Shown here: positions 9,731 to 35,863 of the stretch, in pieces
How positions within the stretch are numbered: position 1 is the first letter of the stretch
Layout: every line of letters begins with the position of its first letter
From: Microbacterium sp. LWH3-1.2
GTDB lineage: Bacteria > Actinomycetota > Actinomycetes > Actinomycetales > Microbacteriaceae
Reading direction: 5' to 3'
DNA: 64,000 bases
NCBI RefSeq assembly: GCF_040675855.1
Contig: NZ_JBEGIK010000001.1
Location: 248,001-312,000, forward strand
Position numbers and translations under genes: made by a program
The notes under the pieces: generated by a model
Database searches by the model: none
What the model saw: the letters and a program-made list of their open reading frames with translations, nothing else
What the model was told of the DNA's origin: nothing

Positions 9731-9770
9731 AGCTACTCCCGTTCTAGTGGCCAGGTGGCTATGCCAATTG

Positions 9771-9799
9771 ACAATATGGGTAAGGAGACTCGGTGTCAA
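9771..9799 (-). promoter_or_regulatory. Promoter of the transketolase operon
   Basis: TTGACA (9799-9794) and TATTGT (9776-9771) are separated by 17 bp on the minus strand. A TTGACA on the opposite strand (9768-9773) makes an inverted repeat with the -35 box, and minus-strand ATTGTCAAT covers the -10, a plausible operator for the divergent GntR regulator at 10684. The start codon lies 41 bp downstream of the -10. Confidence 0.7.
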
Positions 9800-13169: not shown

Positions 13170-13196
13170 GTGTCCTCTTCGGTGAGCGTTTGCGGG

Positions 13197-14540: not shown

Positions 14541-14542
14541 GA

Positions 14543-16720: not shown

Positions 16721-16766
16721 CCTCGCCTCACTCCCTCACACGACCGGCGGTCGCCAGCCGATACAC

Positions 16767-16795
16767 AGAGTAGACAACGATTTTATCCAATACAA
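16767..16795 (-). promoter_or_regulatory. Promoter of the E1-E2-ALDH operon
   Basis: TTGTAT (16795-16790) is followed after 17 bp by TACTCT (16772-16767) on the minus strand, 47 bp before the E1 start. The spacer contains the GntR-like site at 16780-16791. Confidence 0.55.
16780..16791. promoter_or_regulatory. FCD/GntR-like operator, site A
   Basis: ATTTTATCCAAT agrees with ATTGTATACAAT, the operator type of several FadR/FCD regulators, at 10 of 12 positions. It sits between the -35 and -10 of the E1 operon promoter and shares TATCC with site B. Confidence 0.5.
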
Positions 16796-16842
16796 GCCCT
16801 TCGTCTGGCTTTGATGCCGCTGACTGAACTTCCAGCGATCTG

Positions 16843-16854
16843 ATCGGATACAAT
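16843..16854. promoter_or_regulatory. FCD/GntR-like operator, site B, over the -10 of the VOC-GntR unit
   Basis: On the minus strand the site reads ATTGTATCCGAT, again 10 of 12 to ATTGTATACAAT. It includes the plus-strand -10 candidate TACAAT (16849-16854), so binding would block the VOC-GntR transcript. Confidence 0.5.
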
Positions 16855-16882
16855 TTTACGAGGACAGCGACACGGAGGTCGA

Positions 16883-17422
16883 ATGAGCGCTCAACGAGGC
16901 ATCCCGGGCATTCGAGGCACGGACCACATCGGGTTCACCGTTCCAGACCTGGAGGACGCGCATACGTTTCTGGTGGACATCCTCGGCTGCGAAGAGATCT
17001 ACCGTCTGGGCGCCAAGCGCTCGGACGGTGACGACTGGATGCACACGCACCTGGGAGTCCACCCACGCACGGTTGTCAGGGAGATCCGCTTCTACCGGTT
17101 GGGTAACGGCGGGAACTTCGAGGTCTTCCTCTATCAGTCGGCCGATCGGCAGCGCACCCAACCCCGCAACAGCGATATCGGCGGGTATCACATCGCCTTC
17201 TACGTCGACGATCTCGATGCGGCCGTGCAGTATCTCCGCGACAACGATGTGGAAGTGATGGGGGAACCTACCGCAAGCAAGCAGTCGGCCGAAGGTCAGC
17301 GGTGGATCTACTTCCGCAGCCCATGGGGCTTGCAGTTCGAACTCGTAAGCTTCCCGCAGGGGAAAGCGTACGAGAAGGACGCTCCCCGCCTTCTCTGGCA
17401 CCCAGTCCACCCGGAGCGATGA
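16883..17422 (+). CDS. VOC-superfamily (glyoxalase/dioxygenase fold) protein
   Basis: The 179-aa protein has two beta-alpha-beta-beta-beta modules: GTDHIGFTVPDLEDA with the first metal-type histidine at the N-terminus, HPRTVVREIRFYRLG-GNFEVFLY in the middle, and GGYHIAFYVDDLDAAV with WGLQFELVSFP ending the second module. This is the ligand pattern of glyoxalase-I/methylmalonyl-CoA epimerase-like metalloenzymes. GGAGG stands four bases before the ATG. It is translationally coupled to the GntR regulator (ATGA overlap) and divergent from the E1 operon, so it probably acts on an intermediate of the same route. Confidence 0.85.
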   Translation: MSAQRGIPGIRGTDHIGFTVPDLEDAHTFLVDILGCEEIYRLGAKRSDGDDWMHTHLGVHPRTVVREIRFYRLGNGGNFEVFLYQSADRQRTQPRNSDIGGYHIAFYVDDLDAAVQYLRDNDVEVMGEPTASKQSAEGQRWIYFRSPWGLQFELVSFPQGKAYEKDAPRLLWHPVHPER

Positions 17423-18090
17423 GGCGAGCACGAGCGATGAACACGGCGACCCACGGAGCAACCGGCGCCGCGATTGCGGCACGACTCCGCGACGAGATTC
17501 TGGCCGGGACGTACGCACCTGGGGAGCGAATCCGCCAGGACGAACTCGCCGACCTCCACGGTGCGAGCCGACTTCCGGTTCGGGACGCGCTGCGTATCCT
17601 CGAGGCGGAAGGCCTTGTCAACCTGGTCGCGAACACGGGCGCGTGGGTATCGAAGATCAGCATGGCGGAGTGTGAGGAGATCTACCAGATGCGGGAGCGT
17701 CTGGAGCCGCTGCTGCTCCGGTTGAATGTCCCACTGATGACGACCGACGATGCCGACGGTCTGGACCTCCTCGCCGACGCCATGGAGGACGCCACCGATG
17801 TCGAGCGATTCCTGCGAATGGACCGCGAGTTCCACCTGTCCTGCATTGAAGCCGTGGAAACGAGCGTCCTCGGGACCACTGTGCTCAATCTCTGGAACAG
17901 GACTCAGCACTATAGGCGCGCCGCGACAAGACTGTTCTATCTCGAGGAAGACCGCAGCGTGCATTTCGATCATCACCTCATCGTCAACGCGATCCGGTTG
18001 GGCGATGCAGACGAGGCGGAGCAGGTTCTCTCACGCCACATTCGCCGGAGCCGGCTGGAACTCTCCCGGCACCCTGAGGTGTTCTCCTGA
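17419..18090 (+). CDS. GntR-family (FCD) transcriptional regulator
   Basis: The protein of about 223 aa has an N-terminal winged helix (AAIAARLRDEILAGTYAPGERI, DELADLHGASRLPVRDALRIL, EGLVNLVANTGAWV) and an FCD domain (IYQMRERLEPLLLRL, MDREFHLSCIEAV, HFDHHLIVNAIRLGD). The ATG at 17419 overlaps the VOC stop; an ATG at 17437 is an alternative, while a longer upstream frame runs into the VOC gene and is rejected. The two similar sites in the divergent promoter region (16780-16791, 16843-16854) are its likely operators, giving negative autoregulation together with control of the E1-E2-ALDH operon. Confidence 0.9.
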   Translation: MRRARAMNTATHGATGAAIAARLRDEILAGTYAPGERIRQDELADLHGASRLPVRDALRILEAEGLVNLVANTGAWVSKISMAECEEIYQMRERLEPLLLRLNVPLMTTDDADGLDLLADAMEDATDVERFLRMDREFHLSCIEAVETSVLGTTVLNLWNRTQHYRRAATRLFYLEEDRSVHFDHHLIVNAIRLGDADEAEQVLSRHIRRSRLELSRHPEVFS

Positions 18091-19591: not shown

Positions 19592-19779
19592 CCGATGTGG
19601 TGCGCCACGGGGACGGCGCCAAGACGCGCTGCTGCGATGGGTATGTGAGAGCGGCCACTGTCCTCTGCATCTCCGCCGGCGATCGGTGCAGCTTCTCGGA
19701 TCGCCTGGCGATGCCGATCACCCGATCCGCGGAGTGAGATCACGCCAAAGACAGCTCGCCCTGCGTGGCAGCCCCGCTG

Positions 19780-20468
19780 CTCAGGCCCTCGCTCTCCGGA
19801 CGGCTCGCACGGCTATCCGGATGGCGATGAACGCGAGGAAGACGGCGAAGAGCGCATTTCGCGGCGTGCGGGGCCAACAATGTCGCGACCCACGCACCCA
19901 CGGCCGTCGTCGCGCACGCCGCGACGCCGACCGCCGCGGCGGCGGCGAAGAGATCCACGTTGTCTCTCCGCAGGTTCCCTGCCGTCCCAGACACAGCTGT
20001 AGGAATCATCATGAGGAGAGAGGTGCCCCGCGCAGTGAGGCCACTCATGCCGAACGCGAACATCAACGTCGGCACCACGACGATACCGCCGCCCGCCCCG
20101 ATCAGACCGGCGACGATGCCGGTCCCGAGGCCCAAACGATCAGTCCCGCACCGCTGAGCCAGGAGAGTTCAAGGGCAACCTCACGGGAGGCGACGACCAG
20201 GAACAGGCTGACGATCACACCGAGGAGGAAGGTGACGAAGGCCCTACCGCAGCCGCGTATTCGACACCTTCGACAGAAGGCACGTGCCGATCTGGGCGCC
20301 TACGATCGCTCCCGCGGCGAGAATGAGGTCCGCGACCCGGTTCACCGAGCCGTTCAGCGCGTACTCGACCACCCTGACGGGTGCAGTGAGCACGATGACT
20401 GCCATGGAGGCGCCTGCCGCGCGCCGCTGGTCGGAGCCCAAGGGGAGGACCGGCATGGGCACGATCAC
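19780..20468 (-). pseudogene. TauE/SafE-type permease pseudogene with three frameshifts
   Basis: Successive minus-strand frames give adjoining pieces of a sulfite-exporter TauE/SafE family membrane protein. They are QRRAAGASMAVIVL and ILAAGAIVGAQIG ending NTRLR before a TAG; then in another frame FVTFLLGVIVSLFLVVASRE; then GTGIVAGLIGAGGGIVVVP; then NALFAVFLAFIAIRIAVRAV to a stop at 19780. Reading frames change near 20243, near 20140 and near 19860. The first transmembrane helix with its GGG motif is missing, so the 5' end is also truncated. Intact members have about 250 aa and eight helices. The gene is dead unless these are assembly errors. Confidence 0.8.
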
Positions 20469-22422: not shown

Positions 22423-23061
22423 ATGATCCTCACCAAGTTCAATCACGCCACCGTGCGGTTCGAGAAGGACGGTGTTTCGCTGGTAACCGACCCGGGCACG
22501 CCAACCCCGGAGTCGGAAGAGCTCCTGTCTTCCGCTGCAGCAGTCCTGGTGACGCACGAGCACTTCGATCACTGCGACGCGGATGCTCTGCGTCGGGGGC
22601 TCGACCGCAATCCGGATCTGCAGGTCTACGGACCGGCCCCCGTGGCCGAGCTCGTCGGCGACCACTCCGACCGATTCACCGAGGTTTCGCCCGGTGAATC
22701 GTTCACCATCGGCCCATTCTTCGTCGAGACGTTCGGAGGAACACATGCGGTCATCCACCCCGAGATGCCGGAGATGTCTAACATCTCCTACTTGATCGAG
22801 GGACGCGTGTATCACCCGGGCGATTCGTACGAGCTCCCCGGAGTCCCGGTTGAGACGCTGCTCATGCCAACGAGCGGTCCGTGGACGTCCATCCGGCAGG
22901 GCATCGACTTCGTCCGCGGCGTTGCTCCGACGCGCGCCTACCAGATTCACGAGTTCGAGCTCAGTGAGCCAGGGCAGGAGTACGCGCTCTACTTCCTGAA
23001 TCTGATTGCGCAGAGTGCTCCCATCACCAAGCTCGCGGTGGGTGATTCCATCGAGGTGTAA
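22423..23061 (+). CDS. MBL-fold metallo-hydrolase (second copy)
   Basis: The 212-aa protein has the zinc motif at His45-His47-Asp49-His50 (VTHEHFDHCD), GGTHAVIHPEMP and a YHPGDSYELPGVPVETLL segment closely similar to the YHPGDSFIVPAGPAPDTLL region of the first copy at 1287. It is 40 residues shorter because it lacks inserted loops and the C-terminal tail. The gene follows the GGT homologue on the same strand and precedes the flavin reductase-RidA pair, which has its own LacI-type promoter. A lactonase or cyclic-amide hydrolase role in the same route as copy 1 is inferred. Confidence 0.85.
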   Translation: MILTKFNHATVRFEKDGVSLVTDPGTPTPESEELLSSAAAVLVTHEHFDHCDADALRRGLDRNPDLQVYGPAPVAELVGDHSDRFTEVSPGESFTIGPFFVETFGGTHAVIHPEMPEMSNISYLIEGRVYHPGDSYELPGVPVETLLMPTSGPWTSIRQGIDFVRGVAPTRAYQIHEFELSEPGQEYALYFLNLIAQSAPITKLAVGDSIEV

Positions 23062-23115
23062 CGCGTCGGCTCACGCAGGGCCGATCGAGCTTCGGGGATA
23101 CCTCGCCGAAACGCC

Positions 23116-23144
23116 TTGGAAACGAGCCGCGTCTACGCTAACGT
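23116..23144 (+). promoter_or_regulatory. Promoter of the flavin reductase-RidA unit
   Basis: TTGGAA (23116-23121) and TAACGT (23139-23144) are separated by 17 bp. A LacI-type operator begins just downstream of the -10. Confidence 0.55.
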
Positions 23145-23148
23145 CTGG

Positions 23149-23164
23149 CGGCAAACGATTGCCG
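23149..23164. promoter_or_regulatory. LacI-type operator in front of flavin reductase
   Basis: CGGCAAACGATTGCCG is a 16-bp palindrome with central CG. Its core GCAAACGATTGC (23151-23162) resembles the core at 32095-32106 (GCAATCGATTGC) and that at 34109-34120 (GCAAACGATTGT). It lies over the expected transcription start. Confidence 0.65.
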
Positions 23165-23282
23165 TCTTCGGCGGGAGATCGGTGCGGGCGGATGCGCTTC
23201 GACCAGTCGGTCGTAGGGCTGAAAGCTAGCCCCGATCCGTCCCGTCGGTACTCGAACCGACGCATCACGTGAAGGCGGAACA

Positions 23283-23852
23283 ATGATCACCACTCACGCA
23301 GAGCCGCGTATCACCGCGGACGAGTTTCGACACGCGTTCCGATCTCACCCCGCGGGCGTCGCGATCGTCACCGCGGATGCCGGCGACGGCCCGGTCGCGA
23401 TGACGGTGAGCTCTGTGGCGTCTGTCTCGATCGATCCGCCGGCGCTTGTGTTCTCGGCCTCGGCGCTGTCGTCCAGTACGCCAACCATCTGCAAAGCCGA
23501 GACAGTCGTCGTACACATGCTGGCGGCCGACGAAGTCGCATTGGCCAAACTGTGTGCACGTCGCGGTGCCGATCGTTTCGGCCCGGACGTGGAGTGGGAC
23601 AGACTACCCACCGGCGAGCCCTACTATCCGGCCGCGACCTGGCTCCGCTGCAGAGTCAACCAACGCGTCGACGCGAACGGATCGAGTCTGATCGTCGTCG
23701 AAGCGATCCAGGCCAAGGGCACGAGCATCGACACGAACGGTGAGCCGAAGCCGCTCGTGTACCACAACCGCGAATGGCATGTCCTCAGTGAGAGATCCGC
23801 CCTTCCAGACGCGACCTCGCCCTTCTACGCCGTGTACGGACGAGTCGAATAG
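23283..23852 (+). CDS. Flavin reductase (NAD(P)H:FMN/FAD, two-component monooxygenase partner)
   Basis: The 189-aa protein has the split-barrel flavin-reductase fold of HpaC/HsaB type: FRHAFRSHPAGVAIVTAD, AMTVSSVASVSIDPPALVF, HMLAADEVALAKLCARRG and the C-terminal PLVYHNREWHVL. Such enzymes supply reduced flavin to monooxygenases like that at 2734. No monooxygenase is adjacent; instead a RidA gene follows by 45 bp, mirroring the monooxygenase-RidA pair at the left end. Control by the LacI-type site at 23149 is predicted. Confidence 0.9.
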   Translation: MITTHAEPRITADEFRHAFRSHPAGVAIVTADAGDGPVAMTVSSVASVSIDPPALVFSASALSSSTPTICKAETVVVHMLAADEVALAKLCARRGADRFGPDVEWDRLPTGEPYYPAATWLRCRVNQRVDANGSSLIVVEAIQAKGTSIDTNGEPKPLVYHNREWHVLSERSALPDATSPFYAVYGRVE

Positions 23853-23897
23853 GCGCATCCGCTCTTCAGACCGCCACCCCGCACGAGGAAGGACCAC

Positions 23898-24302
23898 ATG
23901 ACCAACGACCGAATCTCCCGCGTCCCCGCCCCCGTCATCCCGGGGATCTCCGACAGCGCCCGAGTCACAGCCGGCGACCTCGTCTTCATCTCAGGTCAGG
24001 TCGGATTCGAAGAAGACGGCTCCGTCCCGACTGACTTCACACGCGCCATCGAACTCACCTACGGCGAGTTCGAGCGCGCGCTGCACGCAGCCGGCGTGAC
24101 CTACGACGACCTCGTCCGCGTCAACGTATACATCACCGAGCTCGACCAGGAGAAGCTGTTCACCTGGCGCGAGACACGCGACGCGATCATCAACACCACG
24201 ACACCCTCGGCCAGCACCGTCATCGGCGTGCAATCGCTCTACCACCACTCAACCATCGAAATCGACGGAATCGCCGCCACGCCCCCGCGGCCCGCTGAGT
24301 AG
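23898..24302 (+). CDS. RidA-family protein without the catalytic arginine (copy 3)
   Basis: The 134-aa Rid-family protein has PAPVIPGISDSARV, FISGQVGFEEDGSVP, LVRVNVYITELDQEK and STIEIDGIAA. The catalytic-loop segment reads SASTVIGV, so the arginine of archetypal RidA is serine, as in copies 1 and 2. GAGGAAGGA precedes the ATG. It is the second gene of the flavin reductase unit. The partnership of Rid proteins with flavin enzymes at two loci suggests that they handle an imine or peroxy/hydroxylated product of the flavin chemistry. Confidence 0.9.
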   Translation: MTNDRISRVPAPVIPGISDSARVTAGDLVFISGQVGFEEDGSVPTDFTRAIELTYGEFERALHAAGVTYDDLVRVNVYITELDQEKLFTWRETRDAIINTTTPSASTVIGVQSLYHHSTIEIDGIAATPPRPAE

Positions 24303-24357
24303 CCGGCGCTGTCTACCGGGGGCCGCTCGCCGAGAACGATCTCTTCCCATCCCTCGG

Positions 24358-24855
24358 TCAGGGTTGCACCTGGGCGGGCACCTGCCCGAGCTCCCAATCT
24401 GGATCAAGCCGGTGGAGGACTCGTTCGAGGAGTGCCGCGAGGTGAATCAGGTCGTCGTGGTCGAGGTCGGCGAGGAGTGTATCGCGAGCGAGAAGGATGT
24501 GAGACGGGGTGGCAGCGAGCCAGGCCCGGCGGCCGTCGCGCGTAAGGTGCACGTCGATCGCCCTGCCGTCATCCGGACAGGCAAGTCGCTCGACGAGACC
24601 ACGCCGTTCGAGACGTGTGATGGCCTTGGAGAGCTTGGGCGCCGGTGAGCCGAGCGCGCAAGCCACATCGCCCATCCGCAGCGTCCGCTGGGGCGCGGCG
24701 ATCAAGACGCTGAGGATCCCGTACTCGAAGTTGGCGAGCCCGGCGGCCGTCGTCAGCTGCGTGTCCAGCGCCCGAGGCAGCGACTCAGCCACGGAGACGA
24801 GCGCGACCCACGCGCGGGCTTGGGTTGCATCCATCCGCGGTACGACGATGCCCAT
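24358..24855 (-). CDS. MarR-family transcriptional regulator
   Basis: The 165-aa protein has the MarR winged helix at about residues 40-110: YGILSVLIAAPQRTLRMGDVA, SPAPKLSKAITRLERRGLVER and a wing in DDGRAIDVHLTRDGR. A TSS seven bases past its -10 (24862-24867) would coincide with the ATG at 24855, so a leaderless transcript is predicted. A methionine seven codons downstream is an alternative start. It shares the palindromic operator 24878-24889 with the divergent oxidoreductase gene and probably represses both. Confidence 0.92.
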   Translation of the reverse strand: MGIVVPRMDATQARAWVALVSVAESLPRALDTQLTTAAGLANFEYGILSVLIAAPQRTLRMGDVACALGSPAPKLSKAITRLERRGLVERLACPDDGRAIDVHLTRDGRRAWLAATPSHILLARDTLLADLDHDDLIHLAALLERVLHRLDPDWELGQVPAQVQP

Positions 24856-24861
24856 GAAGGC

Positions 24862-24906
24862 AGAGTACCGGATCTATTTGCCTAGGCAACAAGGTCTGGA
24901 TAGGCT
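24862..24906. promoter_or_regulatory. Divergent promoters sharing one MarR operator (24878-24889)
   Basis: TTGCCTAGGCAA at 24878-24889 is a perfect 12-bp palindrome of the kind bound by MarR dimers. Its two halves are the -35 boxes of both promoters: plus strand TTGCCT, 17 bp, TAGGCT (24901-24906); minus strand TTGCCT, 16 bp, TACTCT (24867-24862). A bound dimer would block both directions. Confidence 0.75.
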
Positions 24907-24958
24907 CGTTGCCCGGAGCAGCATATGCGGCCTCCCTGATCGGTGGAAAGGATCTACG

Positions 24959-25582
24959 ATGACGAATGTGACCGTGATCGGCACGGGCAACATCGGATCA
25001 GCTGTGGCTGCGGTCGCCGCGAGGGGCGGCGCGGCGGTGCAGCTGCTGGGCCGAGACCCGGAAAAGACCTCGGGCGTCGCCGCCGGCGTCGGCGCGACCG
25101 CCGGTGAGGTCGGCGACGCCCTCACGGGAGACATCGTCGTGCTGGCAGTGCCGTACGCCGCGCTCGCGGAACTGACCGAGCAGTACCGTGACCAGGTGGA
25201 CGGCAAGGTAGTCGTCGACGTGACCAACCCGGTCGATTTCGCCACGTTCGATGATCTGACCGTTCCCGCCGACTCGTCAGCGGCCGCCGAGCTCCAGAAG
25301 AAGCTTCGGGGCGCGCATGTCGTCAAGGCGTTCAACACGAACTTCGCAGGGACGATCGCAACGGGGCAGGTCGGCGACCTACCGACCACGGTGCTCGTCG
25401 CTGGCGACGATGACGCGGCGAAGCAGTCGTTGATCGACCTCATTACCGCCGCGGGGGTCGAAGCTGCTTCGATCGGCTCGCTCAAGCGCGCCCGGGAACT
25501 GGAAGCGTTCGCCTTCCTGCAGATCACTCTCGCCGCCCAGGGAATCGTCGGCTGGGACGGCGGCTTCGCGCTCCGCAAGTAA
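24959..25582 (+). CDS. NADP oxidoreductase, coenzyme-F420-dependent-type dinucleotide-binding protein
   Basis: The 207-aa protein begins MTNVTVIGTGNIGSAVAAVA, a Rossmann motif of the F420H2:NADP+ oxidoreductase (Fno)/ProC_N superfamily, followed by LLGRDPEK, DIVVLAVPYAALAEL, VDVTNPVDF and VVKAFNTNFAGTIATG. The C-terminus ELEAFAFLQITLAAQ is typical of the small YpsC/Fno-like reductases. The start at 24959 follows AAAGGA; the longer upstream frame would run through the MarR operator and is rejected. It is expressed divergently from marR, so its substrate or product is likely the MarR signal. Confidence 0.85.
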   Translation: MTNVTVIGTGNIGSAVAAVAARGGAAVQLLGRDPEKTSGVAAGVGATAGEVGDALTGDIVVLAVPYAALAELTEQYRDQVDGKVVVDVTNPVDFATFDDLTVPADSSAAAELQKKLRGAHVVKAFNTNFAGTIATGQVGDLPTTVLVAGDDDAAKQSLIDLITAAGVEAASIGSLKRARELEAFAFLQITLAAQGIVGWDGGFALRK

Positions 25583-26582
25583 GTACGATCGTCGAGCGCG
25601 TTCATCTCGCCCCGCGCGAAGCTGCGGAGCACACGCTCCGCCGCCCCACGTCAGTCCGCCCACTCCTCACGGACGTGGAGAAGCCCCAGCGAACAGCGGC
25701 TCATGTCTTGCCTCGAGGTCGGCGCGCGGGTTGTCGCGCCGGGACCGCTCCAGGTCCGTGGCCTCCGCGCGGGCGAGGAAATCGTCGCCGTTTCGGCGGG
25801 CGCCTGGCCGGCGGCGTCCAGCTGCGCCGCTTGGACGGCGATGATCCTCGCGTCGGTCGTGTATCCCGCCGCGCGGGAGTTCTCCTGGTCGACGTCGCAG
25901 GTCACCGACACCACCGAGGACAGACGACGCAGGCTGTCATCGACCGGGTCGACACCGATCACGCCCTGCGCGAGCCCGTTCGCCAGCAGTTGGCTCGAGA
26001 TGCGCAGCGTGGCGCGGAGGGTGGAGTGGCAGTGACCGACCAAGGGGACGAATTTTCGGAGGCCGTTCGGCTCGTCACATGCGGCACAAACATGCACGAC
26101 CGGAGGCTGGCAGGCGCTATGCTGACCAGCATCCGGTCGAGAGAGTTCGATCCGAGTATCAGGCTCCCGGACGGACCGTCGCGGTCGGCACCCGAATCGC
26201 CGGCGTGAACGGCAGCGGGGCGCCAAGACTGGTCTGCACGCGACCCATCGATCCGACCATGCGGTGGTGGCTGATCTCGCGCAGGAATTTCCGACTGCGG
26301 AACTGACCGGATTCAACCGGTCGTCGCAACACCGGTTTGTTGGAGCAACAGTAGCTCCTCGTTGAATACTTCGGCTGGTGATGGAGAGCTTCTTCGACGG
26401 TAGCCGCCTCGATGGGTAGTAGCCCCTTAGCGATCTCAACCCAGAACGCCCTCTCGACCGGCCGCTGAAACTGCTGTCGGCGGCGTTCGAAAACTGAACA
26501 CTTGCGGCGGCGAAAAGTGAACACTCAGGAACGTATCAGAATGCGACCGGTCGCATTCTTTCAACGGGAGAGACGAACCTTC
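25583..26582. other. Decayed accessory DNA without an intact gene
   Basis: Long open frames occur on both strands, but none shows a family signature, a good ribosome-binding site or consistent codon use. Between 25690 and 26070 the minus strand has coding-like pieces in two frames (VIGVDPVDDSLRRLSSVVSV; then DDFLARAEATDLERSRRDNP), suggesting one frameshifted dead gene that I cannot name. Insertion-sequence remnants occupy 26308-26524. Confidence 0.5.
26308..26524 (-). mobile_element. IS30-like insertion-sequence remnants
   Basis: A minus-strand frame encodes RPVERAFWVEIAKGLLPIEA, which resembles the N-terminus of actinobacterial IS30-family transposases, then loses homology after 25 residues. 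Minus-strand GTGTTGCGACGACCGGTTGA (about 26314-26333) looks like an IS terminal sequence, and a TGTTCACTTTTCGCCGCC block lies at about 26501-26518. No complete transposase or matched inverted repeats remain. Confidence 0.45.
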
Positions 26583-28190
26583 ATGGTGGCATCGAAGCCT
26601 CAGTTGCTGACGAACGGACATATCTGGTCAGCGCATGACATAGAGCCTGCAACCGCTCTCGCAATTGTCGGCGACCGAATCGCGGCGATCGGAGATCAGT
26701 TCGACCTGAGAGAGCGCTTCGCTGACGCCGACGAACTCGACCTCGGCGGGCGAACTGTGGTTCCGGGAATCATCGACGGCCATGTCCACGCCATCCGCGC
26801 CGGCCACACCTGGGCTGCTGAGCTGCATTGGGAAGACCTCCGGGATCCGCGCGAGGCACGCGACCAGATCGTGCGCGCCGCCGCCACACAACCTCCTGGG
26901 ACCTGGATCACGGTCATCGGCGGCTGGCATCCGACGCAGTTCCACGGGCGTTGGCTCCCCGACCCTCAGGAGCTCGACGCGTGGGCGCCTGAGCACCCTG
27001 TCTACCTCCAAGCGCTCTACGAGATCGGGATCGCCAGCACCAGAGCGCTGCAAATCGTCGGTGAGGCACTCGAAGACGTCCCCGGGGTCGAGCGGGATGA
27101 GACGGGCGCGCCGACCGGGCGCATCGCCGGGCTGCCCGCGTTCTCGCTCTTCGTCGCGGCTGCCGAGCGCGGCACAGCGGCCACACCCGAGGAGGGCACG
27201 CGCCAGTTCTTCCGCGCGGTGGCGGCACGCGGGGTGACGGGTGTGATCGATGCGGGCGGATTCGGCATGAGCGCAGATCGCTACGCGCACGTCCGCGCGC
27301 TCCACGCCGCCGGCGACCTCGACATGCGCGTGCGCACGTTCTCGTCGGTGGTCGATCGCGGCGGTGAGGTCGCCGACGCGCGGGGGATCATCGATCGTAT
27401 CCGCAGCAGCTCCGACGACCCCTTCTTCCGGGAGGTCGGCCTCGGGGAAATCGTGCATTTCGGATGCCACGACTTCGAAGGTCTCGAAGACGTGACGATC
27501 GCGCCCTCCGTCTTCGGCGAGTTCCTCGAGATCAGTCGATACGCCGCCCGGGCCCGCACACCGATCCACGTTCACGCCGTCACAGAGCAGGTCGTGGACT
27601 TCGTGCTCACCGCGTGGGAGCAGGTTGACGCGGTCGTGCCGATTCGCGACCTGCGGTTCTCCATCGCGCACGCCGACCTCGCCTCCCCCACCGCCATCGC
27701 ACGGATGCGGGCGTTGGGCGTGGGCGTCATCCTCGATGGCCGGCAGACGCTGCGGGCCGAGTCGTCCGAGACGGCGTGGGGAGCTGACGCTCTCTCGTAC
27801 GCTCCCCCCATCAGCTCACTGCTCGACGGTCACGTGCCGCTGGGTCTCGGTACCGACGCGACGCGCGCCTCTTCCAGCGACCCATGGCTCGCCCTGTGGT
27901 GGCTGGTCGCGGGATCGTCTCTTGACGGCGTCCCCCGCCGCCACCAGACGCAGCTCATGACGCGACGGCAGGCATTGCACACGATCACTCGGGGAAACGC
28001 GTGGTTCACGAACGAGGAGGGCACTCGTGGACTGCTCGCCGAAGGAGCCTTGGCCGACATCGCCGTTCTCTCCCGCGACTACTTCACCGTCGAGCGGGAT
28101 GCCATTCCGGGGATCACCTCAGACCTGACGCTCCTGGGAGGCCGTCCGATCTACTCTTCCGGTGCGGTTTCCACCGAGGTCGTGCACTGA
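26583..28190 (+). CDS. YtcJ-like amidohydrolase
   Basis: With the start at 26583 the protein has 535 aa. It shows the amidohydrolase layout: a small N-terminal beta domain (LLTNGHIWSA, ALAIVGDRIAAIG), the metal motif DGHVHAIRAGH, the inserted YtcJ region with GWHPTQF, then HVHAVTEQ, SIAHADLASP and GLGTDATRASSSDP, and a C-terminal return to the beta domain (GALADIAVLSRDYFTV). Relatives hydrolyse N-substituted formamides, imidazolones or similar amides (AepA/NfdA group). GGGAGAG lies about nine bases before the ATG; an upstream frame starts inside the IS remnant and is rejected. It stands alone between the IS graveyard and the lpdA terminator. Confidence 0.88.
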   Translation: MVASKPQLLTNGHIWSAHDIEPATALAIVGDRIAAIGDQFDLRERFADADELDLGGRTVVPGIIDGHVHAIRAGHTWAAELHWEDLRDPREARDQIVRAAATQPPGTWITVIGGWHPTQFHGRWLPDPQELDAWAPEHPVYLQALYEIGIASTRALQIVGEALEDVPGVERDETGAPTGRIAGLPAFSLFVAAAERGTAATPEEGTRQFFRAVAARGVTGVIDAGGFGMSADRYAHVRALHAAGDLDMRVRTFSSVVDRGGEVADARGIIDRIRSSSDDPFFREVGLGEIVHFGCHDFEGLEDVTIAPSVFGEFLEISRYAARARTPIHVHAVTEQVVDFVLTAWEQVDAVVPIRDLRFSIAHADLASPTAIARMRALGVGVILDGRQTLRAESSETAWGADALSYAPPISSLLDGHVPLGLGTDATRASSSDPWLALWWLVAGSSLDGVPRRHQTQLMTRRQALHTITRGNAWFTNEEGTRGLLAEGALADIAVLSRDYFTVERDAIPGITSDLTLLGGRPIYSSGAVSTEVVH

Positions 28191-28200
28191 CGTTTCATCG

Positions 28201-28369
28201 GTCTCTGCTGCACTGGCCGATCGGATCGGTGGGCGAGATCCCGGATGCTGTCGCCGACGCGGTCTCGAAGATCGCGCGCGCGTCGGCCTTGGCGCCGATC
28301 GCCCGGATCCTCGACAGCCGCACCGCGTACGCGCTGGAAGACAAGCTCGCCCGCACCCTCGGCGCGTGA
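28201..28369 (+). pseudogene. C-terminal fragment of an unidentified protein
   Basis: The frame ends with LHWPIGSVGEIPDAVADAVS and KIARASALAPIARILDSRTA before a TGA at 28367, a helical, coding-like tail with very high GC at third positions. Upstream it is open only because it overlaps the amidohydrolase gene in another frame, where it looks random. The fragment therefore seems to be the 3' end of a gene that was cut off at about 28200, which marks a recombination joint. I do not recognise the family. Confidence 0.4.
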
Positions 28370-28377
28370 GACGAAGA

Positions 28378-28411
28378 AACGCCCCGGACCTTCGAGGAGG
28401 TCCGGGGCGTT
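28378..28411. terminator. Bidirectional rho-independent terminator
   Basis: A perfect 13-bp stem (28378-28390 with 28399-28411) encloses an 8-nt loop. On the minus strand it is followed by TTCTTCGTCT and ends the lpdA transcript 16 bp past its stop; it also serves the plus-strand fragment. Confidence 0.9.
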
Positions 28412-28426
28412 CCGCGTGTCAGCGGA

Positions 28427-29824
28427 TCAGAGGTTGATCATGTGGCCGGCGAGGCCGTGGAAGGCCTCCTGCACGGCCTCCGACAGCGTCGGGTGCGTGT
28501 GGACGTTGCGGGCGGCCTCGAGGGCGGTGAGGTCCCACTTCTGCGCGAGGGTGAGCTCGGGCAGCAGCTCGGACACGTCGGGGCCGATCAGGTGGCCGCC
28601 GAGCAGCTCGAGGTGCTCGCCGTCGGCGATGAGCTTGACGAAGCCGATGGGCTCGCCCAGGCCGTTGGCCTTGCCGTTCGCCGAGAACGGGAACTTCGCG
28701 ACCTTGACGTCGTAGCCGGCGTCGCGCGCCTGCTGCTCGGTGAGGCCGAACGAGGCGACCTGCGGCGAGCAGAACGTCGCGCGCGGCATCATGCGGTAAT
28801 CGCCCAGGGTCATGGTCTCGGCCTTGCCGATCGTCTCGGCGGCGACGACGCCCTGCGCCTCGGCCACGTGCGCGAGCTGCAGCTTCGCCGTGACGTCGCC
28901 GATCGCGTAGATGTGCGGAACGTTCGTGCGCATGTGGTCGTCGATGTCGATGGCGCCGCGGTCGGTGAGCTTCACGCCGGTGTTCTCGAGACCGAAGCCC
29001 TCGACGTTGGCGGCGAAGCCGATCGACATCATGACCTTGTCGGCGTCGATCGAGCCGGTGGAGCCGTCCTTGGCGGTGTAGGTCACGGTGACCTTGTCAC
29101 CGTGATCGGTGACCGTCTCCACCTTGGTCGAGGTGAGGATGTCGACGCCGTAACCCTTGTACTGACGCGCGATCTCCTTCGAGACGTCCGCGTCCTCGTT
29201 CGGCAGGGCACGGTCGAGGAACTCGATGATCGTGACCTTCACGCCGTAGTTCACCATCACGAACGCGAACTCCATGCCGATCGCGCCGGCGCCGACGATG
29301 ACGATCGACTGCGGCAGGTCACGGGCGAGGATCTGCTCCTCGTACGTCACGACGTTGCCCCCGATCTGCACGCCCGGCAGCAGACGCACCTTCGAGCCGG
29401 TCGAGATGATCGCGTTGTCGAACGTGACCCGCTCGGTGGCGCCGTCGGACTTCGCGACATCGATCGTGTGCGCGTCGACGAACGAACCACGCCCCTCGTA
29501 CTCGTCGACCTTGTTCTTCTTCATCAGGTAATGGATGCCCTTGACATGGGTGTCCGCCACCTTGCGGCTGCGGTCCCACGCCACACCGAAGTCGAAGCGC
29601 ACATCACCCGAGATGCCGAACAGATCGGCCTTGTGGTGGAACTGGTGCGCGAGGTCCGCGTTCTTCAGCAGAGCCTTCGAGGGGATGCAACCCACATTCA
29701 GACAGACACCGCCCCAGTACTTCTCTTCGATGATGGCGACCTTCAGGCCGAGCTGCGAAGCACGGACGGCCGCGACGTAGCCGCCGGGCCCCGCGCCGAG
29801 GATGGCGACGTCGTAATGAGGCAT
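28427..29824 (-). CDS. lpdA: Dihydrolipoamide dehydrogenase (E3)
   Basis: The 465-aa protein has the N-terminal FAD motif [14 protein letters not shown], the redox-active disulfide Cys41/Cys46 in [13 protein letters not shown], the NAD-binding [12 protein letters not shown], and the C-terminal active-site His444-Glu449 (THPTLSEAV). It reoxidises lipoyl groups of 2-oxo acid dehydrogenase complexes. Codon use is much more biased to GC-ending codons than in the two genes before it, as in a highly expressed core gene. It lies 13 bp after the M24 homologue on the same strand and could be read from the LacI-controlled promoter at 32111. It is the only E3 in the window and so the natural partner of the E1-E2 pair at 13.2-16.7 kb. 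Confidence 0.95.
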
Positions 29825-29837
29825 GCTCCCGGACTCC

Positions 29838-31145
29838 TCAGTACTGGTTCGCGACGAACAGCTCTTGCGCCGGGAACTTTGTCAGGACTTCGATCCCGTA
29901 GTCGGTGACGACCACTTCCTCTTCGATTCGCGCCGCCGAAACTCCATCCGATGCAGGGCAGTACGTCTCCATGGCGAAAACCATGCCCGCCTTCAGTTCG
30001 ACGGGGTCCTTCATCGAGTTCAGCCGCGAGATGATCGGCCGTTCGTGCAAACCGAGGCCCAGACCGTGGGCGAACTGCAACCCGAAAGCAGCGAGTTCAT
30101 TCTCGAACCCGAAGTCCTGCGCGGCCGGCAGCACACTCGCAACCTGATCGCTTCCGACGCCCGGCCTGATCGCGTCCAAGGCGATGTCCATCCATTCTCG
30201 CGCCTGCTTGTACGCGTCCCGCTGGCTCGCGGTCGCCCACCCCACCCCGAACGTGCGGTAGTAGCAGGTGCGGTAGCCGTTGAACGAGTGAATGATGTCG
30301 AAGAATGCTTGGTCACCCGGACGGATGATCCGGTCGGTGAAGTTGTGCGGGTGCGGGTTGCACCGCTCACCGGAGATGGCATTGACTGCCTCGACCTGGT
30401 CGGAGCCATACTCGTAGAGGCGCTTGTTCGCCAGAGCGACGATCTCGTTCTCACGCACGCCAGGCTTGAGGGCCTCGGCGATGTCCTGGTAGACGCCGTC
30501 AACCATCGCTGCGGCCTGATTGAGCAGCAGGATCTCATCCTGGTTCTTGATCACACGCGCGTCCAGCATCGACTGCTGCGCATCGACCACGCGCAGTCCC
30601 TGTCGCTGCATCTCGAACAGGAACGGCGGTTCGACGATGTCGACGCCTACCGGTGCGTCGGCCAGGCCGGCACCCTGCAGCAGAGAACGGATCTCGGACA
30701 CCGCGTCCCGCATGAGACCTGCGCCGCCCTCGGGATCGACGGCACCTCGGAAGCCGAGGAACCCGGCGCGATAGTTCTCCTCCGGCACCCAGTCCGAGTA
30801 GAGCTTGTGATGACGGACCGCGGAGCCGAAGTCCCAGAGGATCGGATCGTGATCACGCATGAGCAGGGTGTACCGGATCATCTTGTCGCCCAGCGCCCCG
30901 CCGATCCACGTCTGCGTGGTGTACCGGATGTTGTAGAAGTCGAACAGCAGGAATGCACCGCATTCGCTGTTCTCGAGCGCCAGCTTGGCGCGTGAGAGGC
31001 GATAGTTGCGCAGCCGGTCGAAGTCGACGCGATGCTCGTAGTCCACGCCGTTCTGACCCGGCGCACCCAACGGCCGCACACCGGCGGGCCGGGAAACCGG
31101 CCGCTCGAAGCGGCCGGCTCCCCCGTGAGAGTGGTGAGCCCCCAT
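29838..31145 (-). CDS. M24-family metallopeptidase homologue with a Cys-substituted metal site (copy 2)
   Basis: The 435-aa protein is a clear paralogue of the one at 6571: creatinase-type N-domain and a catalytic domain with [37 protein letters not shown] and RIEEEVVVT. Again the second metal-ligand aspartate of M24 enzymes is cysteine, with His and both Glu ligands kept. The ATG at 31145 overlaps the stop of the upstream oxidoreductase (TGATG); a GTG one codon earlier is possible. Conservation of the same substitution in two diverged copies argues that it is functional. The gene is in a unit with a 3-hydroxyisobutyrate-dehydrogenase-like gene and lpdA under a LacI-type operator. Confidence 0.87.
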
Positions 31146-32077
31146 CACTCGGCCTCGAGGCCGTCGCTCACCGACGCGTTCTCCGAGGCGATGTCGAGCG
31201 CGGAGCCGCGCGCAACCGTCAGCAGAAGCGTCGCGAAGTCCTGCTCGACGTTGCCGTTACCGACCTCCTGAGCGACGATGTTTCGCGTCACCGAGGCGAC
31301 AGGCATGACCACACCCAGATTGTGCGCCGCGGCGAGGCCGAGATCGAAGTCCTTCTGCAGCAGCACGTTGGTGAAGGTGGGCTTGAAGTCCAGGTTCACG
31401 AAGGCGGGGGTCTTGTACTGCGTGAACACGGAGCCCATCACCGAGTCGTTGAGGAATTCGAGGAACGCCTCACGAGTCACGCCCGCCTTCTCAGCGAGCA
31501 CGGTGATCTCGGCGAGCGACTGCGTCACAACGCCCAGGAATACGTTGTGCGCGATTTTGACTGTGCGTGCAACTTCCCCCTCGCCCACGTAAGTGACGCC
31601 TCGGCCCCAGGTCTGCAGCAGCGGCAGCGCGGTCTCGAAAACATCCCGCGGGCCCGAAACGGCGACGGTGAGCTTGCCAGCCGCGATCACCGCGGGATTG
31701 CCCGAGACCGGCGTTGCGAGGAAGCCCACGCCACGACCTTCAGCAACCGAGCGAACGCTCGCACTTGCCTCCGGCGACACCGTCGAGGCGTCGCCGATCA
31801 GCTTCGGCGCACGACCATCGTCAGTGAGCAGTCCACCTTCGCCGAGCATGACATGCTCGAGGTCCTTGGATGCAGACACCATGCTGAACACGATGTTGCG
31901 TCCCGCCAGCTCTACTGGCCGGTCGACGACAGTCGCGCCGAACTCGGTAAGAGGCTCGGCCTTCGCGCGAGTCCGGTTGTAGACCGCAACCTCGTATCCA
32001 GCATCAAGCAGGCGTTTGATGAGCTGGGAGCCCATTCGTCCAGCGCCAATCCACCCGACGGTCGGCTTCGTAGTCAT
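31145..32077 (-). CDS. NAD(P)-dependent beta-hydroxyacid dehydrogenase (3-hydroxyisobutyrate dehydrogenase-like)
   Basis: The 310-aa protein has GWIGAGRMGSQLIKRLLDAG at the N-terminus, VYNRTRAKAEPL, a substrate-binding DASTVSP, FLATPVSGNP, and the catalytic lysine in VKIAHNVFLG. This is the signature set of the beta-hydroxyacid dehydrogenase family (HIBADH, tartronate semialdehyde reductase, glyoxylate reductase). The start at 32077 follows GGGGAG; an upstream extension through the operator is rejected. It is the promoter-proximal gene of the M24/lpdA unit. The family oxidises a beta-hydroxy acid to a semialdehyde or performs the reverse. Confidence 0.92.
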   Translation of the reverse strand: MTTKPTVGWIGAGRMGSQLIKRLLDAGYEVAVYNRTRAKAEPLTEFGATVVDRPVELAGRNIVFSMVSASKDLEHVMLGEGGLLTDDGRAPKLIGDASTVSPEASASVRSVAEGRGVGFLATPVSGNPAVIAAGKLTVAVSGPRDVFETALPLLQTWGRGVTYVGEGEVARTVKIAHNVFLGVVTQSLAEITVLAEKAGVTREAFLEFLNDSVMGSVFTQYKTPAFVNLDFKPTFTNVLLQKDFDLGLAAAHNLGVVMPVASVTRNIVAQEVGNGNVEQDFATLLLTVARGSALDIASENASVSDGLEAE

Positions 32078-32094
32078 GTTTGCTCCCCTGCTAA

Positions 32095-32106
32095 GCAATC
32101 GATTGC
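32095..32106. promoter_or_regulatory. LacI-type operator before the dehydrogenase-M24-lpdA unit
   Basis: GCAATCGATTGC is a perfect 12-bp palindrome with central CG, the hallmark of LacI-family sites. It lies 4 bp past the -10 and 17 bp before the ATG at 32077. On the minus strand CAATCGATTGCTTAGCA is identical, over 17 bases, to the plus-strand sequence at 34178-34194. Confidence 0.8.
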
Positions 32107-32110
32107 ATCC

Positions 32111-32139
32111 ACCATAACGTCCGCGGTGATCTGGTGCAA
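32111..32139 (-). promoter_or_regulatory. Promoter of the dehydrogenase-M24-lpdA unit
   Basis: TTGCAC (32139-32134), 17 bp and TATGGT (32116-32111) precede the operator on the minus strand. A bound repressor would cover the transcription start. Confidence 0.65.
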
Positions 32140-32276
32140 CAGTCCGGTGGCGCGACGCCGTCGAGCAGCCCAATGCAACGCCCCGAACAGGACCGGTCGA
32201 GCCACCTCCCCAGCGCGTGCGCAAACACGAAGAAGTCAAAGCATCGCTCGGGATATCGCCCGATGCACGTTGCCTC

Positions 32277-33335
32277 TCAGAGTTGCTGGATGCCTTCGAC
32301 TGGCGCCGGCCCAGTCGAATCTCGCAAGACCAGGGACACGGGGAGCATGACGGTCTCGGCCATCTGATCACCGCCGTTGAGTGCATCGAGTAGCAGCCGT
32401 GCTGCGCGTTCCCCCATCGCGGTGGTCGGCACCCTAATCGTGCTGAGCGGCGGACAGAAGTCCTCGGCGAACTGGACGTCATTGAAGCCGATGACCGACA
32501 TGTCGCGCGGGCATTGGATGGCCATCTGCTTCATCGCACGCAGGATGCCAACTGCGATGAGATCAGTACTCGCGATGACACCCGTAATACCGTGACTGCG
32601 GTTACGCAAGAGCGGCAGCATCGCATCCCGGCCTGCCTCGATCGATAGTGCGTCCGCATTCACCACGGTCCCGACGACGCCCTCGTGAGCCGAACAGGAC
32701 GCTTCGAACGCCTGAGCGCGAGAGGCGCTGGTCGAGATGCTCATCGGGCCGGCCACGTGGACAAGGCGTCGATGCCCCAACTCGACGAGGGATTCGACAG
32801 CTGCAGCGATACCGCTTGCGTCGTTTCCCGCCACCAATGGATAGGGCACTGGCCCGGCGTCGCGGTTGAGCAGGACGACTTTCACGCCTGAGCGGTAGAG
32901 TTCCGCGATCGCCGTCTCTTCCCGCTGCCCGGAGGCGACGATGAGTCCATCCACGCGGCGGTCGAGCAGCGAACGGAGTGCCCCACTCTCACCTTCGGCG
33001 AAACCATCAGTGTTCGCAATGAGCGCCGAGTACCCGTGGGGCTGGAGATGCGCCTCGATGCCCCTCACCACCGGGGGGAAGAAGGGATTGGTGATGTCGG
33101 GGATGACCACGCCGATCGTCATCGAGTTCCTCGTACGGAGGCCACGCGCCAGGGCGTTGGGCACGTATCCCAGACGTTTGGCGGCCTCCTCGACCCTCAG
33201 AACGGTGTCGGCGTTGACCATCGCTCGGGTGCGAGCATTCAGTGCGCGGGACGCCGTCCCAGCGTGCACCCCCGCCAGTTGGGCCACCTCAGCGATCGTG
33301 GCGCGCCGGGCCTCCGCCACCCGCCACCCCCTCAT
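32277..33335 (-). CDS. LacI-family transcriptional regulator
   Basis: The protein (about 352 aa) has the LacI headpiece TIAEVAQLAGVHAGTASRAL with the hinge helix region AAKRLGYVPNALARGLRTR, then a periplasmic-binding-protein-type effector domain (IGVVIPDITNPFFPPVVRG, DGLIVASGQREE, TGVIASTDLIAVGILRAM, TTAMGERAARLLLDAL). The frame is open further upstream; starts at 33335 (ATG) or 33320 (GTG behind AGGGGG) fit the family better than the GTG at 33374. It lies between the dehydrogenase unit and the frameshifted RidA gene, each with a shared-type operator, and it is the natural candidate to bind RCAAWCGATTGY. Confidence 0.92.
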   Translation of the reverse strand: MRGWRVAEARRATIAEVAQLAGVHAGTASRALNARTRAMVNADTVLRVEEAAKRLGYVPNALARGLRTRNSMTIGVVIPDITNPFFPPVVRGIEAHLQPHGYSALIANTDGFAEGESGALRSLLDRRVDGLIVASGQREETAIAELYRSGVKVVLLNRDAGPVPYPLVAGNDASGIAAAVESLVELGHRRLVHVAGPMSISTSASRAQAFEASCSAHEGVVGTVVNADALSIEAGRDAMLPLLRNRSHGITGVIASTDLIAVGILRAMKQMAIQCPRDMSVIGFNDVQFAEDFCPPLSTIRVPTTAMGERAARLLLDALNGGDQMAETVMLPVSLVLRDSTGPAPVEGIQQL

Positions 33336-33597
33336 CGTACGACTGCTCTTCGCGCCACCGAAGCTCACGAGCACGTGTGATCCTATCGGTCTTGGCGTCC
33401 ATACAGACCGACACCCCGAATCGCCGGGTCATTGGCATTGCACTATCCACGTTGTCAAATGGGGAGCCCAGCGACCATGAGTCACGCCACAGCCAGCCGC
33501 CTTGACGCCCGCGTGATCCGACTTCCGAGCCGGCCTACATCTGAATCCGGACGCAATGTGGGCGCGAGAGCATCGGGCGGCGGGCACACATCGGCTA

Positions 33598-34049
33598 TCA
33601 GTCGAGCGTGCCCCGATCGACGCCCCTCGACGACATCGGCAATGGCACCACCGCCGTTGCACCTACCTCGACGAGCTTCTGAAGCGAACTGAACTTCGCG
33701 ACCTTCATTACGGTCGGCGGGGCGTCACCGAGCACCCTGCGTTGGACTTCGAAGAACGTTCGGATGTGCGACGCATCCGCAACGTATGCCGTCATCCGGA
33801 CGATGTCCCGCCAAGTCGCGCTTTCATGAGCCAAGACATGTTCGAGCCTCCCGAAAGCGTGCCGTGTCTGTTCGCGAAATCTCCAGGCGCGAGCAAGTCC
33901 GCGTTCGGTTCGTTGCTCGGAGCCCACGGGCCCACGCTGGAGAGATACAGGACCCTCGCCGCGGTCTCGGTGACGACAACGTCTTCGGATCGCGCACTCA
34001 TCCAGTCCGACGAAGACCAGTCATCGGCAATTCGTAGTGTTTGTGTCAT
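33598..34049 (-). pseudogene. RidA-family gene with a single frameshift (copy 4)
   Basis: From the ATG at 34049 one frame encodes MTQTLRIADDW through ARVLYLSSVGPWAP and LLAPGDF. A second frame continues with REQTRHAFGRLEHVLAHESA, WRDIVRMTAYVADASHIRTF and LVEVGATAVVP to a stop at 33598. Losing one base in the TTT/AAA run near 33877 explains the shift. Joined, the protein would have about 150 aa. Its sequence is distant from copies 1-3, and the segment aligned to the catalytic arginine reads PPTVMKV, so arginine is absent here as well. It is either a recent pseudogene or a sequencing error. Confidence 0.72.
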
Positions 34050-34108
34050 GGCCGTCCTCGGGTGTGTCGTCGCGTTCCCGTACATGTTCGCAAACGCGAA
34101 GGAGAACT

Positions 34109-34120
34109 GCAAACGATTGT
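34109..34120. promoter_or_regulatory. LacI-type operator, proximal site before RidA copy 4
   Basis: GCAAACGATTGT matches the core of the site before the flavin reductase (GCAAACGATTGC) except for the last base. It overlaps the weak -10 region of the minus-strand RidA promoter (TTGACG about 17 bp upstream). Confidence 0.5.
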
Positions 34121-34176
34121 GGCGTGGTACCGATGCGTCAAGCGGCCGCGAGAGCTTCCGAGCCTCAGACCTCAAC

Positions 34177-34194
34177 ACAATCGATTGCTTAGCA
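34177..34194. promoter_or_regulatory. LacI-type operator, distal site before RidA copy 4
   Basis: ACAATCGATTGC with the flank TTAGCA: CAATCGATTGCTTAGCA is a 17-base exact match to the operator region before the dehydrogenase gene at 32077, on the opposite strand. It is 128 bp upstream of the RidA start and could form a loop with the proximal site. Confidence 0.65.
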
Positions 34195-34199
34195 TTCTT

Positions 34200-34636
34200 G
34201 GCCCGCGTCCGCGGATCTCCGGACGCCCATCGCCCGCCAAGCACCGCGGCCGCATGAACTCGAGATCCGAGAATGGGATATGCGGGCGACCGCTCCGGCT
34301 CGGTTCTGCTCGACGACACCAGGTATTCGAATGACACGCGAGCCGCGGTTGCCGAAGCCGCATCCAGCCATTGAGGGAGTGCCGCCGGAGGGCGTCTATA
34401 CCCCCATGGGATAGGAGGATCACCGTGCACCCGTTGTGAGAGACTCCGACGTCATCACTGCCTGGGCTGGCACGATTGCGGCCGTGGACTGCACCCGAAC
34501 TCACCATCTGACTGTGCGCTCCCAGCTCAGGGCGAGCACGCACGACGAGATCGCTGGAGCTGTAGGAGACCGCTCGCATCAGGGACTTGAAGCGTGGTCG
34601 ACGGGCGGGCCGAGATCCCGTCCAGAGCTCGTCCGG
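34200..34636. other. Non-coding or decayed spacer
   Basis: No recognisable gene, RNA or repeat. Several open frames cross the stretch on both strands without family signature or ribosome-binding site. Confidence 0.45.
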
Positions 34637-35863
34637 TCATCCCTGGTGAGGACGGATGCCGAACGCAGCGCCGGCCGGGGCCGGGCTGTCCTGGTACGGG
34701 CTGGCGCCCACGAGGTTGTCGCCGCGGTTCGCGCCGGGGATGGCCTGCCGCGGCGCCTCGTCGCCGTACTTGGCGGCCACGAGGTTCGTGTGGGTGGGTG
34801 CGTCGGGCACCTCCGCGGGGCGGTTCTTCTGCAGCTCCTTGCGCAGCACCGGAACCACCTCGCCGCCCAGGATGTCGAGCTGCTCGAGCACGGTCTTCAG
34901 CGGCAGGCCGGCGTGATCGATGAGGAACAGCTGGCGCTGGTAATCACCGTACGTCTCGCGCATCGCCGCGTAGCGGTCGATCACCTGCTGCGGCGAGCCC
35001 ACCGTGAGCGGCGTCATCTCGCTGAAGTCCTCGAGCGACGGGCCGTGGCCGTAGACCGGGGCGTTGTCGAAGTACGGGCGGAACCGCGTCACCGCGTCCT
35101 GCGAGTTCGCCGCCATGAACACCTGGCCACCCAGGCCCACGATCGCCTGCTCGGGCGTGCCGTGCCCGTAGTGCGCGTAGCGCTGACGGTACAGCTGGAT
35201 CAGGCGCTGGTAGTGCTCCTTCGGCCAGAAGATGTTGTTCGCGAAGAACCCGTCGCCGTAGTACGCGGCCTGCTCGGCGATCTCGGGGGTGCGGATCGAC
35301 CCGTGCCACACGAAGGGCGCCACGCCGTCCAGCGGACGGGGTGTGGAGGTGAAGCCCTGCAGCGGCGTGCGGAACTGCCCCTCCCAGTCCACGACGTCCT
35401 CCCGCCAGAGGCGGTGCAGCAGATTGTAGTTCTCGATCGCCAACGGCAGGCCCTGGCGGATGTCCTTGCCGAACCACGGGTACACCGGGCCGGTGTTGCC
35501 ACGACCCAGCATCAGGTCGGTGCGACCGCCCGACACGTGCTGCAGCATCGCATAGTCCTCGGCGATCTTCACCGGGTCGTTCGTGGTGATCAAGGTCGTC
35601 GCGGTCGACAGGATGAGACGCTCGGTCCGCGCCGCGATGTACGCGAGTGTCGTCGTGGGCGACGAGGACCAGAACGGCGGGTTGTGGTGCTCACCGAGGG
35701 CGAAGACGTCCAGCCCCACCTCCTCGGCATGCTGGGCGATCCGCAGGGTCGCCTGAATCCTCTCCGCCTCACTGGGTGTCGTCCCGTCCGTCGGGTCCTC
35801 GGTGATGTCGCTCACCGTGAAGATGCCGAACTGCATCCCCGCCCACGTGGTGCTCTCGCTCAT
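34637..35863 (-). CDS. LLM-class flavin-dependent oxidoreductase (luciferase-like)
   Basis: The 408-aa protein has the bacterial luciferase-like TIM barrel: FGIFTVSDITEDPTDGTTPS, GLDVFALGEHHNPPFWSSSP, ILSTATTLITTNDPVKIAED and the LMLGRGNTGPVYPWFG region near the active site, ending with PLKTVLEQLDILGGEVVPVL. The start at 35863 follows GGAGAG; 18 upstream codons are rejected. The codon use is that of a core gene. It belongs to the group of stand-alone FMN/F420-type monooxygenases whose substrate cannot be assigned from sequence. A TGCAAATGAATGCA near-palindrome lies at 35914-35927 in its promoter region. Confidence 0.9.
   Translation of the reverse strand: MSESTTWAGMQFGIFTVSDITEDPTDGTTPSEAERIQATLRIAQHAEEVGLDVFALGEHHNPPFWSSSPTTTLAYIAARTERLILSTATTLITTNDPVKIAEDYAMLQHVSGGRTDLMLGRGNTGPVYPWFGKDIRQGLPLAIENYNLLHRLWREDVVDWEGQFRTPLQGFTSTPRPLDGVAPFVWHGSIRTPEIAEQAAYYGDGFFANNIFWPKEHYQRLIQLYRQRYAHYGHGTPEQAIVGLGGQVFMAANSQDAVTRFRPYFDNAPVYGHGPSLEDFSEMTPLTVGSPQQVIDRYAAMRETYGDYQRQLFLIDHAGLPLKTVLEQLDILGGEVVPVLRKELQKNRPAEVPDAPTHTNLVAAKYGDEAPRQAIPGANRGDNLVGASPYQDSPAPAGAAFGIRPHQG

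Follow-up and report, generated by a model that had tools for sequence, protein, structure and literature searches.

A predicted LacI-type regulon with RidA-family genes in Microbacterium sp. LWH3-1.2

Genes and putative operators at the locus

The window, by which we mean the whole 64,000-nt stretch of Microbacterium sp. LWH3-1.2 DNA that was analyzed, contains a LacI-family gene, here called LacI1, and four exact copies of the motif RCAAWCGATTGY (Table 1). The four cores were found where the original prediction had placed them, and the LacI1 gene sits between the loci that carry them, also as predicted. The helix-turn-helix domain of LacI1 scored 41.1 bits against PF00356 (cut-off, 27), and its ligand domain, which resembles periplasmic binding proteins, scored 123 bits against PF13377 (cut-off, 26.5).

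Table 1. Coordinates of the genes and predicted operators (window positions, unless a contig is named)
Feature	Position	Strand	Description
Operator GCAAACGATTGC	23151..23162	+	120 nt upstream of flavin reductase start
Flavin reductase-like protein	23283..23852	+	PF01613, 102 bits (cut-off 27)
RidA-family protein	23898..24302	+	PF01042, 56 bits (cut-off 27.3)
Dihydrolipoyl dehydrogenase, operon gene 3	28427..29824	-	TIGR01350, 551 bits (cut-off 408.8)
M24-family metallohydrolase, operon gene 2	29838..31148	-	PF00557, 120 bits
HIBDH-like NAD-binding dehydrogenase, operon gene 1	31145..32077	-	PF03446 and PF14833; start codon checked
Operator GCAATCGATTGC	32095..32106	-	17 nt upstream of dehydrogenase start
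LacI-family repressor LacI1	32277..33374	-	PF00356 and PF13377; recognition helix VHAGTASRAL
RidA copy 4, two frames	33598..34049	-	parts 33792-34049 and 33598-33927
Operator GCAAACGATTGT	34109..34120		59 nt before RidA copy 4
Operator ACAATCGATTGC	34177..34188		127 nt before RidA copy 4
Distant RidA-family gene	C1:3434934-3435401 (L240:8935-9402)	-	own exact operator

The genes for the HIBDH-like dehydrogenase and the M24 enzyme abut or overlap by no more than 4 nt, and a gap of 13 nt follows before the dihydrolipoyl dehydrogenase gene. This arrangement suggested that the three genes probably form one operon. The M24 enzyme was strongly conserved (85-95% identity among the best 120 of 8000 scored homologs). 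It and another M24 metallohydrolase (6571-7887) had weak scores against the DddP model (99 and 120 bits), far under its cut-off of 600.

Both predicted sites of RidA copy 4 lie upstream of it. In the present assembly its two parts are in different frames and do not make one open frame. Pfam detected a RidA domain only in the C-part, and a homolog search with that part returned only itself among five candidates. Nine RidA-domain matches were found in the genome, three of which lie behind motif sites. The counterpart of the distant RidA gene in another genome (G439) is 82% identical and adjoins the counterpart of the dehydrogenase gene.

Several other features were observed in the neighborhood. 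A CE1758-family luciferase-like monooxygenase gene (34637-35863; TIGR04036, 705 bits versus a cut-off of 479) adjoins the regulon and has no operator match. A short TauE-like frame of 131 aa (19740-20135) aligned only piecewise with its counterpart in the related genome G329, and the gene is possibly broken in one of the two. At 7930-9799, a transketolase-like protein is split over two separate, adjacent genes. An operator before the E1/E2/aldehyde dehydrogenase operon (11787-16720) was considered and rejected, since neither the present genome nor G329 has one in the intergenic stretch. This divergent stretch (16720-16883), between the E1-type dehydrogenase gene and a glyoxalase-like gene, does hold an operator in several genomes with LacI2, a paralog described below. 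Words resembling ATTGGATA recur in it here, and are perhaps sites of the FCD/GntR regulator encoded at 17302-18090.

Occurrence of the motif in the genome

The motif gave six strand matches in the window, versus a mean of 0.07 and a maximum of 2 in shuffled sequences, and none of the 100 shuffles reached six. The 17-base identity claimed for the sites at 32095 and 34177 was confirmed as TGCTAAGCAATCGATTG, with the two copies on opposite strands (aligned by eye).

A scan of the whole genome (3,936,381 bases in two contigs), which had been proposed as a check, found the motif at only five places, four of them inside the window. It is thus not equally dense elsewhere. The reversed control pattern had no match across the whole 3.94 Mb. 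When one mismatch was permitted, nine more places appeared (reversed control, 3+2); judged by eye, seven of them fall within likely coding frames and two are intergenic.

The fifth exact site (C1:3435511) is about 3.15 Mb away from the window and 109 nt upstream of the distant RidA-family gene. An imperfect copy of the motif, TCAATCGATTCC, starts 19 bp from it. Each of the five sites precedes the leading gene of a unit, the distances being 17, 59, 109, 120 and 127 nt.

Site 32095 starts 4 bp past TATGGT, and site 23151 starts 6 bp past a weak TAACGT. The predicted spacing of 4-6 bp from a -10 box was therefore correct, but the boxes could not be called convincing: they are weak by consensus, and a scan for sigma-70-like promoters at 9/12 consensus matches found none in 32000-34400 or 22950-24400. 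TTGACA-like boxes preceded the site in upstream stretches of this genome and 11 relatives, with AATAAT-like boxes in four, all of these stretches having been selected for carrying the site. An operator placed at the transcription start would fit repression. DNA looping between 34109 and 34177 was considered and rejected: paired sites are 68 bp apart in this genome, 88 bp apart in G329 and 111 bp apart in G052, and none of these spacings is a whole number of helical turns.

Association of the motif with LacI1 orthologs

Because the motif was derived from one genome, other genomes with a LacI1 ortholog provided a fair test. At an E value of 1e-75 or better, orthologs were present in 11 of 366 genomes of the genus and 22 of 398 of the family, with the present genome included in both counts. 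The exact motif was found in 29 of the 31 other ortholog-bearing genomes. The two that lacked it were G464, which is 66% complete, and G098, where sites with two mismatches occupy the expected positions, including a palindrome 62 bp upstream of the HIBDH ortholog. The reversed control gave seven strand matches, in four of the 31 genomes. A scan of GTDB contigs for close relatives gave a best match of 43% identity.

The motif also lay close to the regulator gene. Among 86 distinct places in the ortholog-bearing genomes, 48 were no more than 2.5 kb from the ortholog gene. The count rose to 59 at a limit of 10 kb and to 63, spread over 28 genomes, at 20 kb, versus about one of 86 expected by chance within 20 kb (31 genomes totaling about 98 Mb, from rounded sizes). 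The other 23 were more than 20 kb away or on other contigs. As many as 31 of the 86 were within 300 bp of the ortholog gene; for autoregulation in the present genome, no site was found in the 223 nt before the annotated LacI1 start.

An HIBDH ortholog (at least 59% identity) was present in 15 of 19 fetched regions (17 genomes), and in 12 of these 15 an exact site preceded this gene, or a RidA-HIBDH pair, by at most about 130 bp. The three others were from G098, G150 and G031. Site 32095 is thus conserved upstream of the HIBDH-like dehydrogenase gene in relatives.

Within the genus, 73 of 361 genomes contained the motif and 288 did not; it was present in 10 of the 11 that have the ortholog and in 63 of the 350 that lack it. 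The motif is thus not confined to genomes with an ortholog. Regions from at most 12 of these 63 genomes were examined, and in seven genomes the motif was near or together with LacI2 or other LacI genes; LacI2 was found in at least six of the 63 (G116, G120, G127, G327, G261 and G318).

That the four sites resemble one another by chance would be conceivable, as the 12-mer was picked after the sequence had been read and single matches in ortholog-free genomes may mostly be chance. Its rarity in the genome, at five places per 3.94 Mb, and the independent ortholog test, in both the association and the closeness to the ortholog gene, led us to reject this explanation as having practically no likelihood. 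It is also improbable, to a lesser degree, that the sites are bound by a different LacI-family protein. The genome has 30 LacI-family matches, but the motif tracks LacI1 orthologs across genera, and LacI1 has the only VH-type recognition helix among the 28 helices read (L203 and L229 were left out). The VH helix is common to LacI1, its orthologs and LacI2; VH-type LacI genes were also found away from the motif (L196 and L252).

The original prediction had joined the units in the window in one regulon, with the regulator guessed from its adjacency in this single genome. Co-occurrence with LacI1 orthologs and closeness to them supported this link, for operators that are predicted, with three amendments: the distant RidA gene is added as a fifth member, RidA copy 4 is frameshifted in this assembly, and LacI2 clouds the assignment of site 23151.

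Operator form and the LacI2 paralog

The consensus of 52 sites in 24 regions was about AnTGCAATCGATTGCAnT, an even palindrome with a central CG, of which the CG and the core were fixed by the search pattern and the flanks were free. The palindrome reached past the searched core, position -3 favoring A and position -1 favoring a pyrimidine. At position 2 from the center, 84% of half-sites had T and the other 16% had A.

By PurR numbering, we take the residues of LacI1 to be Arg20, Leu54 and Arg55. In the published LacI code (PMC2978694), Arg20 is linked to G at NT-6 and Leu54 to the central CG, and the base at NT-2 is tied to residues 55, 15 and 5. The Arg20 and Leu54 of LacI1 and the G and central CG of the motif are consistent with this part of the code. 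Among 18 of the 20 open-licence papers with CAATCGATTG in their main text, none was about a LacI protein by its title.

LacI2 is about 37% identical to LacI1, with the helix GVHVxTASRAL. It adjoins flavin reductase, RidA and M24 genes in several ortholog-free genomes with at least three motif places. Searches found it in 4 of 198 genus genomes at 1e-110 and in 4 of 18 chosen genomes at 1e-60 (G261, G318, G328 and G329). In the present genome none was found, the best match being LacI1 itself at 37%. LacI1 or LacI2 was present in 11 of the 12 genomes with at least three motif places, a set in which the count for G116 was helped by L243. G196 has three asymmetric places, and neither LacI1 nor LacI2 was found in it; G082, without LacI2, has two forward matches and one reverse.

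The two paralogs differed in the form of their sites. The asymmetric form made up 19 of 20 sites in six LacI2 regions versus 10 of 38 in 19 LacI1 regions, in a count that omits the G329 and G328 regions, L190, the sites of the present genome, L241, L248-L252 and L254, and in which the LacI2 genomes are mutually related and the family LacI1 genomes were taken without a LacI2 search.

This difference raised the question of whether site 23151, and perhaps 34109, is a leftover operator of LacI2, with only the symmetric CAATCGATTG sites belonging to LacI1. Besides the symmetry count, such a history would be in line with the absence of LacI2 from the present genome and with G328, G329, G127, G116 and G318, where LacI2 lies within a flavin reductase-RidA cluster that carries the motif. 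On the other hand, all five sites in the LacI1 region of G329 are asymmetric, whereas the flavin reductase-RidA site of that genome, aligned with 23151, is the symmetric GCAATCGATTGC. In G052, which lacks LacI2, a symmetric site heads a same-strand run that includes flavin reductase-RidA, and the operator at 23151 is still intact in the present genome. We consider the leftover unlikely, though clearly less so than binding by another LacI protein.

Since the LacI1 region of G329 holds only asymmetric sites, the specificities of LacI1 and LacI2 probably overlap. We think that site 23151 is served by LacI1, yet of the five sites it is the one of which we are least sure.

Proposed mechanism

Our main reading, to which we assign a probability of roughly 85% on sequence evidence, is that a LacI1 dimer binds five operators, represses four units and is released by an effector. 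The dimer would bind a palindrome of about AnTGCAATCGATTGCAnT at the four places in the window and at C1:3435511. Bound at or beside the promoters, it would repress the flavin reductase-RidA and dehydrogenase-M24-dihydrolipoyl dehydrogenase units, and likewise the distant RidA gene and RidA copy 4, which is frameshifted in this assembly. A small molecule, probably one that the pathway consumes or produces, would bind the ligand domain and free the operator. We infer the binding, repression rather than activation, and the inducer; relief of repression by an effector is common among LacI-type regulators.

LacI1 has a ligand domain of the sugar-binding type, yet no sugar gene is present in the four units. 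Because RidA proteins clear reactive imines and enamines, a nitrogen compound that yields such products is a plausible substrate. Searches by family, by structure and in the open-licence literature gave no match to a named pathway. The clusters of relatives also hold amidase, amidohydrolase and ABC transporter genes.

A more detailed history can be offered only tentatively, at somewhat below even odds. LacI2 may have been lost or never present here, and LacI1 may have captured the flavin reductase-RidA unit, whose operator stayed where it was; the paralogs would use almost identical operators, one with a lean toward the symmetric CAATCGATTG core and the other toward the asymmetric CAAACGATTG core, and the pathway would break down an imine- or enamine-yielding nitrogen compound and not a sugar.

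The predicted regulon is compact and testable, with one repressor, five operators and four units that include three of the nine RidA-domain matches. The LacI1/LacI2 pair lets operator form be compared with recognition-helix residues. A conserved M24 enzyme and an HIBDH-like dehydrogenase would be tied to one regulated pathway, which should aid the search for the substrate.

Comparison with known systems

In the Rut pyrimidine pathway, RutF is a flavin reductase and RutC belongs to the RidA family. The adjoining flavin reductase and RidA-family genes resemble this pairing, but the flavin reductase here scored only 55 bits against the RutF model TIGR03615 (cut-off, 254.75).

The domain layout of LacI1 is that of RbsR, CytR, PurR and CcpA, and its PDB matches were CcpA, RbsR, PurR and LacI. 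Among the NCBIfam equivalogs, no cut-off was reached, the best being RbsR (NF047341) with 223.3 bits versus 382. The core of the PurR operator, GCAAACGTTTGC, is close to the present motif. A published regulon of such make-up was not found among the open-licence papers listed.

According to Ravcheev et al. (2014, PMC4052901), who reconstructed LacI-family regulons by comparative genomics, nearly 90% of the regulators are local and serve sugar utilisation, their motifs are mostly even palindromes with CG, and more than 75% of the sites are 30-140 bp upstream of starts. Like the local regulons described there, the present one has one LacI-type regulator, few operons, a CG-centered even palindrome and sites mostly at such distances from the starts. 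Unlike the sugar regulons described there, its four units contain no sugar gene and three contain RidA genes. Its sites are conserved beside the regulator gene across species, as in a local LacI regulon. The circuit thus looks like one of this ordinary, known type, of which the present regulon would be a new member.
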